From contig NZ_JAQSIO010000006.1 in NCBI RefSeq assembly GCF_028649455.1, positions 124,001-188,000 of the forward strand: a DNA stretch of 64,000 nucleotides. The letters run 5' to 3'. Position numbers and translations under genes: made by a program. The notes beneath the pieces were generated by a model. It was given only the letters and a program-made list of their open reading frames with translations. It was not told the DNA's origin and searched no databases. The stretch is from Curvibacter microcysteis (GTDB taxonomy: Bacteria > Pseudomonadota > Gammaproteobacteria > Burkholderiales > Burkholderiaceae_C). Of the stretch, positions 62,409-64,000 are shown one piece after another (position 1 is the first letter of the stretch; the number at the start of each line of letters is the position of its first letter).

Positions 62409-62939
62409 ATGGCATCCATCAATAAAGTCATCATCGTCGGCAACCTGGGGCGCGACCCCGAGATCCGCACCTTCCCCAGCGGCGACCAAGTGGCCAACGT
62501 CACCATCGCCACCACGGACAAGTGGAAGGACAAGCAGACCGGCGAAATGAAAGAAGCCACCGAATGGCACCGCGTGGTGTTCAACGGTCGCTTGGCTGAA
62601 ATCGTCGGCCAGTACCTGCGCAAAGGCTCGCAGGTGTATGTGGAAGGTTCGCTGCGCACCCGCAAGTGGACCGACCAGTCTGGCGTTGAAAAATACAGCA
62701 CCGAGATCCGCGCCGACCAGATGCAAATGCTGGGTGGCCGCCAAGGCATGGGCGGTCCCTCGGGTGACGACGGCGGCTACGGCGGTGGTCAAGGCGGTGG
62801 CTATGAAGCCGCCCCGCGCCGCGCCCCGGCCGCTGCGGCCCCGCGCGCGCCGGCTCCCCGTCCTGCCCCGGCCCCCGCGCCCATGGCCAGCCGCCCGTCT
62901 TCGGGCTTTGACGACATGGATGACGACATTCCTTTCTGA
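62409..62939 (+). CDS. ssb: Single-stranded DNA-binding protein
   Basis: A 176-residue protein. The N-terminal OB fold (1-110: [40 protein letters not shown]) is followed by a flexible glycine-rich and then alanine/proline-rich linker (about 115-165). The acidic tip DDMDDDIPF recruits repair and replication partners. GGAGA precedes the ATG. A strong terminator follows 29 bases after the stop. Confidence 0.97.
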
Positions 62940-62967
62940 GGCCCTGCCCTGAACGCTGAAGTTTGAG

Positions 62968-62999
62968 AGCCCCGGGTGCCTGGCACCCGGGGCTTTTTT
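62968..62999 (+). terminator. Intrinsic terminator after ssb
   Basis: AGCCCCGGGTG and CACCCGGGGCT form an 11-bp perfect stem around a 5-base loop, followed by six T residues. Confidence 0.93.
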
Positions 63000-63040
63000 A
63001 TGGGCGACGTGATGAGGTGCGTGTTCAGCCCAGCGCTTGA

Positions 63041-63439
63041 AGCCACCCCTGGTGCAGCACATCGATCGCCCAAATCCTCATCCTTTGCAAGACCTACCCT
63101 TCGCCCCGCGTCCAGTACGCCGAAACATCGTGCGTGGCAGGCCTCACCGAGCAGGGGCCGTTGATGCGTTTGTACCCGGTGCCTTTTCGACTGATCTCCG
63201 ATGAGCAACAGTTTCGGACGTGGCAGTGGATTCAAGCCCGGGTTGAGAAGGCCCGCGACGACCCCCAACCGGAGAGTCACCGTGTGTACATTGACACGAC
63301 GACCTTGGCACACGCCCAACAGGCGCCGCTGTTTTGGGCGGCGACATCAGGTGCCAGGTGGCGGGGGGAGGGCGCGCCATGCCGCGCTGCTGCATGCGCC
63401 ACGCAGCTGCGGTGGCGCAGGCTGTGGTCCGCCTCATAG
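63041..63439 (+). pseudogene. Decayed fragment of a conserved hypothetical gene
   Basis: The 550 bases after ssb hold no intact gene. One frame, open from 63041 to a TAG at 63437, reads ILILCKTYPSP, then ETSCVAGLTE, LMRLYPVPFRLISDEQQF and WQWIQARVEKARDDPQPESH, a pattern I recall from a conserved hypothetical family. It has no plausible start codon before the first conserved residues, and the similarity fades after VYIDT (about 63296), running into unrelated arginine/alanine-rich sequence. It is read as a truncated remnant. The function of the intact family is not known to me. The stretch 63440-63552 holds nothing I can support. Confidence 0.55.
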
Positions 63440-63552
63440 CAAGCCAGGCAGGCCGTTGTGCTTGGGCTCAGTTCGGCCAGCCCCAGCCCGGATTCGCGCA
63501 CGGCACTGTCGCCACGGCGGGCGAGCCGCTGGGGCGTGCCGTCCCATGGCCC

Positions 63553-64000
63553 TCAGCGCGCCACCCAGCCTCCGCACACCGGAAACACCTGGCCCACAAA
63601 GCAGTCGGCCGCGTCGCTGCACAGGTAGGCGGCGAACAGAGCGTCTTCGCGCGCGCCGACCAGGCGGCCCAGTGGCACCTCGCGCGCCAGGCGCTCTTGA
63701 AAGCGCGGGTTGGCCTGCACCGAGGGCGGGAAGTAGGTGGGGTTGTCGACAAAGTTCTGCGCGATGGCATTGACCTGGATGTGGCTGGGGGCCAGTTCCA
63801 CCCCCAAGGCCTGCACATACGCCAGCTGGGCCCCGCGCGCGGCGCTGTAGGTGGACGCCCGTTTCATGCCGCGCAGGGCCGAGGCGCTGCCCATGACCAG
63901 AACCTTGCCGCGTCCGCGCGACAGCATGCCCGGGACAGCGGCCTGCACCAAGCGGGGCAGCGGGTCGACCAGTGCGGCAAACACCTCGCGCCATTCCAGC
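63553..64000 (-). CDS. SDR-fold protein with halohydrin-dehalogenase-type triad, N-terminus outside window
   Basis: About 148 C-terminal residues of a short-chain dehydrogenase/reductase-fold protein; the start lies beyond the right edge. The catalytic line reads GSASALRGMKR then ASTYSAARGAQ: Ser-x12-Tyr-x3-Arg, with Tyr at 63847-63849 and Arg at 63835-63837. Ordinary SDRs have Tyr-x3-Lys. Ser-Tyr-Arg is the triad of halohydrin dehalogenases (HheA/B/C), which lack NAD(P) and close vicinal haloalcohols to epoxides. IAQNFVDNPTYFPP sits where their halide-site loop lies, and VPLGRLVGAREDALFAAYL and GGWVAR fit the C-terminus. The missing N-terminus prevents checking the loss of the glycine-rich NAD motif. 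Confidence 0.7.
   Translation of the reverse strand, partial: LEWREVFAALVDPLPRLVQAAVPGMLSRGRGKVLVMGSASALRGMKRASTYSAARGAQLAYVQALGVELAPSHIQVNAIAQNFVDNPTYFPPSVQANPRFQERLAREVPLGRLVGAREDALFAAYLCSDAADCFVGQVFPVCGGWVAR

Follow-up and report, generated by a model that had tools for sequence, protein, structure and literature searches.

Does the gene that runs off the right edge of this stretch of Curvibacter microcysteis DNA encode a halohydrin dehalogenase (HHDH) and, if so, of which subtype? HHDHs are used biocatalysts that remove the halogen from halogenated alcohols. The window, i.e., the whole stretch of 64,000 nucleotides that was analyzed, corresponds to positions 124001-188000 of contig C6 in a 4.8 Mb genome of 21 contigs. 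An open reading frame at 63553-64000 on the minus strand (read from 63999 to 63553) was found to be open into the window edge and to specify 148 residues plus a stop. The complete gene was recovered from the same contig at C6 187556-188233 (minus strand, 226 codons), with its start codon 233 bases beyond the edge at window position 64233 (C6 188233). By ORF reading and contig extension, the 3' part of this putative D-type HHDH gene (63553..64000, minus strand) encodes residues 79-226 of 226 and the stop codon. Two features of this part had led the first-pass annotation to propose a candidate HHDH, and both were located as described. These were a Ser-x12-Tyr-x3-Arg triad, here S116-x12-Y129-x3-R133 at 63835..63888 (minus strand; codons of Ser 63886-63888, Tyr 63847-63849 and Arg 63835-63837), and an AQNFVDNPTYF loop (A158-F168) read from the sequence at 63730..63762 (minus strand). 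The loop presumably lies at the halide pocket, as in HheC.

The HHDH fingerprints T-x4-F/Y-x-G (motif 1) and S-x12-Y-x3-R (motif 2, the catalytic triad), together with their SDR (short-chain dehydrogenase/reductase) counterparts, were taken as defined in PMC11976700. Beyond the window edge, where the first-pass annotation had proposed to look for T-x4-F/Y-x-G in place of TGxxxGxG, motif 1 was found as T13-QANE-F18-M-G20 (TQANEFMG, residues 13-20) and TGxxxGxG was absent; the glycine-rich motif that the annotation had named as grounds for rejection has been lost. Neither SDR motif, TG-x3-[G/A]-x-G or Y-x3-K, was detected in the complete 226-aa protein. When the protein was shuffled 100,000 times, motif 1 arose somewhere in the sequence in 2.0% of the shuffles and motif 2 in 1.2%, so the two motifs alone are modest evidence, and it is the full-length homology to HheD2 that we regard as decisive. 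By phmmer search of the PDB, the best match was 7b73 (E = 7e-101), identified as the halohydrin dehalogenase HheD2 in PMC9629495 and PMC5892878. It was followed by 8xxb, HheB (1e-53), 6a41 (named only 'dehalogenase'), HheA entries and one more HHDH, and the first ordinary SDR appeared at 1e-20. HheG (5o30, 3e-17) and HheC (1pwx, 7e-16) came among ordinary SDRs such as FabG or after them, and for this reason the score alone cannot set off the whole HHDH family; by this measure the tie of the window protein is to the D and B types. Identities to the window protein were 70% for HheD2 (over 219 residues), 61% for 8xxb, 46% for HheB, 32% for HheC, 31% for 6a41 and 30% for HheA2.

SDRs of the same genome served as a control. 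Of 42 matches to a Pfam SDR model in this genome, one was the HHDH, and 30 of the others were examined as loci. Motif 1 (within the first 60 residues) and motif 2 were each found in 0 of these 30, with TGxxx[GA]xG present in 24 and S-x9-15-Y-x3-K in 26. A maximum-likelihood tree was built from 37 rows, i.e., 16 of the 80 hheD loci described below, 12 of the 30 SDR loci, six PDB chains, two phage proteins and the window protein. Alignment A1 held 31 proteins, excluding L003 (the same gene), L007 and nine family-survey matches that came without a locus, and a copy with an in-frame stop (L104) was kept out of alignments and tree alike. In the tree, the 25 HHDH-type rows, including the window protein, stood apart from the 12 SDRs (support 100/98), and A/C-type rows split from B/D-type rows (98/98). 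The B, D and phage rows formed one open fork (98/98) without internal order, with HheB on a long branch; long branches were flagged by the tree program, and our claim is limited to the gross split. Placement in a tree with HheA to HheG, as the first-pass annotation had proposed, was thus borne out in part: in a tree covering types A, B, C and D, the protein groups with the HHDHs apart from SDRs, and the B and D rows share one open fork. The window gene is under purifying selection relative to its counterpart in Curvibacter sp. HBC61 (dN 0.071, dS 0.55, ratio 0.13). AlphaFold models of the HBC61 protein (90% identical; pLDDT 83.4, pTM 0.85) and of a phage homologue (pLDDT 83.0) displayed the alternating strand-helix layout expected of the fold. 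They add little, since both are least reliable directly after the catalytic Ser and at the C-terminus, as is a segment of the 158-168 loop in the HBC61 model.

On this evidence we consider it about 93% probable that the product of the window gene is an HheD, a halohydrin dehalogenase of type D. An ordinary NAD(P)-dependent SDR that acquired a chance Lys-to-Arg change would fit the database matches, as Pfam returned generic SDR matches only and, among the best 25 of 184 NCBIfam matches, none reached its cut-off. Such a protein is extremely improbable here, given that the glycine-rich motif is absent, T-x4-F-x-G stands in its place and the protein groups with HHDHs. The choice between subtypes D and B calls for more discussion. 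HheD to HheD6 are counted as experimentally verified in PMC4989007, which gives newer D members as 57-95% identical to these; the 70% identity to HheD2, the sole verified HheD compared, falls inside this range. Since subtype D has these verified members, the suggestion of an unstudied SDR branch is wrong. In the same paper HHDH subtypes are described as <30% identical to each other, a statement at odds with the 46% identity between the window protein and HheB, and the B/D boundary deserves care because of this misfit. An HheB-type enzyme, which the first-pass annotation had suggested as one option, draws on HheB being, at 46%, the closest of the named structures that are not of type D, and on the single clade of B and D rows apart from A/C (98/98), in which the place of HheB is unsettled. 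It is nevertheless very improbable, for the window protein is 70% identical to HheD2 versus 46% to HheB, shares its loop with HheD2 where HheB has AQHWTQNKEYF, and carries Phe in motif 1 instead of the Tyr of HheB. The marks of subtype B, namely closest similarity to HheB and a Tyr in motif 1, were not found in this protein (46% identity, Phe18). The first-pass proposal of an HHDH is thus upheld in its main idea, with D as the subtype in place of B. The D-type assignment makes the window protein an ordinary further member of an already described subtype.

By homology to HheC and HheD2, Ser116 would hold the hydroxyl of a vicinal haloalcohol while Tyr129, its pKa lowered by Arg133, would take the proton; the oxygen would then displace the halide, closing an epoxide ring. 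On leaving, the halide would enter a pocket found where SDRs have the NAD(P) site, with T13-F18-G20 and probably also the 158-168 loop as its lining. In the reverse reaction, an epoxide could be opened with halide, azide, cyanide or nitrite. This scheme follows the HheC mechanism as given in section 4 of PMC4989007, in which Tyr, with a pKa lowered by Arg, acts as base on a hydroxyl positioned by Ser, and the SDR cofactor site is occupied by the halide. Equivalents of these three residues and of those of motif 1 are present in the window protein, and from this homology we infer dehalogenase activity, substrate and role.

The HHDH gene is convergent with ssb (NCBIfam match above cut-off) and divergent from the gene of a 138-aa protein that has no Pfam match, past which lie a 552-aa ORF and then a 1521-aa ORF, taken by eye for bcsC. 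No pathway gene adjoins the HHDH gene among these neighbors (ssb, the 138-aa protein and further unrelated genes), no Rfam match was found in window positions 62900-64000, and the gene is probably transcribed alone. Between the ssb and HHDH blastn blocks there is a gap of ~550 bases (window 63000-63549), compared to 33 in Curvibacter sp. HBC61; it holds a 101-aa ORF (63134-63439) that has no Pfam match and is possibly a gene fragment. An insertion here, or a loss in HBC61, appears to account for the difference. Long ORFs were also seen antisense to hheD (L002:835-1851, plus strand, opposite the window gene; L036:5980-6753, minus strand), probably a composition effect. Such ORFs apparently took the place of hheD in a naive ORF picker, with the result that the gene was overlooked in 36 of 80 loci.

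The distribution of hheD was surveyed at several depths. The gene was detected in 5 of 9 genomes of the genus, in 39 of 299 of the family and, at E <= 1e-50, in 4 of 398 of a phylum sample (this genome included, all four in its own family); the two large surveys scored only the best few candidates per genome, so that misses are possible and their counts are lower bounds. A pattern search of the GTDB species collection hit 512 stretches, 480 of them within a loose tblastn limit (E <= 1e-3) that might admit ordinary SDRs too. The best 80 of the 480 are 73-90% identical to the window protein in this one scan, and the earlier remark that the family is small is dated. Motif 1 was found in 78 and motif 2 in all of these 80 loci, either SDR motif in none, and the exact AQNFVDNPTYF in 68; the two departures from motif 1 were an Ile for Thr (L114) and a Leu for the aromatic residue (L085). 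Some of the 80 are metagenome-assembled genomes labeled Chloroflexi, Acidobacteria or Deltaproteobacteria, labels given here as deposited and open to misbinning. The hheD of Hydrogenophaga intermedia MER 62 (L104:6001-6678) has an in-frame stop and is either a decayed copy or a sequencing error. The nearest named relative is that of Curvibacter sp. HBC61 (90%), with the same gene order on both sides of the locus. Plasmids yielded one match in 72,556 records, at 44% identity. Thus, hheD is patchy, not rare. No report was found in a literature search on HHDH with Curvibacter.

To examine gene neighborhoods, all ORFs outside the HHDH gene were clustered, with the HHDH gene found in 80 of 80 loci after replacement of an earlier ORF picker that had kept it in only 44. 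A conserved operon was rejected: the largest neighbor clusters covered 6 of 80 loci, a lower bound since many loci end at contig ends. No neighbor family recurs beyond these 6 loci, and the neighborhoods thus do not point to a native role. Five of the 80 loci have an alpha/beta hydrolase gene on the hheD strand, 86-193 bases upstream in four and 2.4 kb downstream in the other (L054:612-1535 and its relatives in L046, L066, L068 and L087; four Thauera and one Desulfatitalea). The L054 protein, the sole member scanned, had a Pfam match, and none of its 17 NCBIfam matches reached cut-off; it is possible that this hydrolase is an epoxide hydrolase partner of hheD in those loci. No alpha/beta hydrolase or epoxide hydrolase gene adjoins the window HHDH gene, and an epoxide hydrolase domain of the EHN type was absent from this genome by profile search for that type. 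As of 2016, only two known HHDH genes sat with an epoxide hydrolase gene, and other physiological functions were held possible (PMC4989007).

We next compared hheD carriers and non-carriers for a type II haloacid dehalogenase, of which this genome has one above cut-off (L157, G000:C1:763122-763715). Among the 299 family genomes it was present in 35 of 39 carriers versus 152 of 260 non-carriers (p 7.5e-5, odds ratio 6.2, ignoring kinship and genome size). Two control families, the only ones used and picked without a prior rule, leaned in the same direction more weakly (Ldh_2, 22/39 versus 107/260, p 0.084, odds ratio 1.85; Asp_Arg_Hydrox, 14/39 versus 63/260, p 0.17, odds ratio 1.75), and the EHN epoxide hydrolase gave 5/39 versus 18/260 (p 0.2, odds ratio 1.98); none of these three differences was significant. 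Counted by genus, the haloacid dehalogenase was found in 29 of 31 versus 69 of 110 (p 0.0007), or in 27 of 31 by a stricter count (p 0.009), kinship again ignored; which of the 39 carriers hold each protein family was read by eye from lists. The enrichment is a lead only, because it is uncorrected for kinship. It bears on the possibility, compatible with the HHDH typing, that the native job of the enzyme is another reaction, e.g., of an endogenous epoxide with a non-halide nucleophile, and that dehalogenation is a side activity. Such a role would suit the lack of any neighbor recurring beyond 6 of 80 loci, the other physiological functions that PMC4989007 (2016) does not exclude, and the D-like copies in phage, whereas the more frequent haloacid dehalogenase in hheD carriers speaks against it, with the same weak lean in the controls and kinship ignored. 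We give this other native job a substantial though minority chance.

The most unusual by-product of the analysis was the phage homologue. A D-like protein with 51% identity to the window protein was found on six IMG/VR contigs; five of these (L115-L119) share one protein, encoded at L118:4983-5669, and the sixth (L120:4983-5669) encodes one 78% identical to it. The HHDH-like gene of L118 is flanked by a phrog_11903 gene and a head-tail adaptor; a tail sheath follows downstream, and a virion protein and a second sheath or sheath-stabilizer match precede it upstream. By eye, L120 has the same ORFs on either side of its copy. The contig is phage DNA, since the gene sits amid these structural genes. 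Motif 2 is intact in the phage proteins and motif 1 reads T-x4-M-M-G in both lineages, with Met in place of the aromatic residue that contacts the halide in HheC. Between the two lineages pN was 0.158 with synonymous sites saturated (pS 0.78), and the neighboring adaptor gene was more conserved still (pN 0.053). The homologue is under purifying selection and has been kept at the same place in two lineages with its Ser-Tyr-Arg. Among the 12 of 60 records listed, the sheath had its highest identities (42-44%, across roughly half of the protein) with phages of Sinorhizobium and Agrobacterium whose genomes measure 469-490 kb. The corresponding pair of genes is separated by ~1.6 kb in Pseudomonas phage PA5oct, compared to 3.1 kb in L118. 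A T4 portal model found no match in the 88 kb phage record, nor in any control genome, and is therefore uninformative. Of 50,697 phage records, 34 matched, all below 60% identity and at 26-39% in the 30 listed. PHROGs files the phage homologue with FabG-like reductases, and no report of a phage HHDH was found among the papers listed by a literature search on HHDH or haloalcohol dehalogenase with phage, virus or AMG.

As a speculation, and one we think unlikely to hold as a whole, D-type HHDHs might be patchily inherited, solitary enzymes for an unrecognized natural epoxide or haloalcohol, rather than mainly pollutant degraders. Their usefulness would be such that large tailed phages keep a copy of their own, with Met for the halide-touching aromatic residue and hence perhaps another nucleophile. 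For the window gene itself the outcome is an annotation correction and not a discovery: automatic pipelines are likely to miss the protein as an HHDH, because the best 25 of its 184 NCBIfam matches fall below cut-off and even the PDB entry of HheD2 bears the name of a short-chain dehydrogenase. The loci gathered provide a ready set of D-type sequences, and there are three handles on the native role: no neighbor recurs, carriers show an uncorrected statistical link to the type II haloacid dehalogenase, and phages have copies of their own. It is the phage homologues and the native role, rather than the gene itself, that merit follow-up.

Compared to known systems, the window protein most resembles HheD2 (PDB 7b73, subtype D, from a gammaproteobacterium), with 70% identity over 219 residues, both motifs and an identical AQNFVDNPTYF loop, although ~30% of residues differ. 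PDB 8xxb, deposited as 'Short-chain dehydrogenase/reductase SDR', is 61% identical and has both motifs. HheB (PDB 4zd6, subtype B) likewise has both motifs and shares a clade with the D rows at 46% identity, but differs in the Tyr of motif 1, its AQHWTQNKEYF loop and a lower score. HheC (PDB 1pwx) and HheA2 (PDB 1zmo) have the Ser-Tyr-Arg triad and T-x4-F-x-G in common with the window protein, yet are 30-32% identical to it and belong to a separate clade; the HheC gene shares an operon with that of an epoxide hydrolase (PMC11976700).
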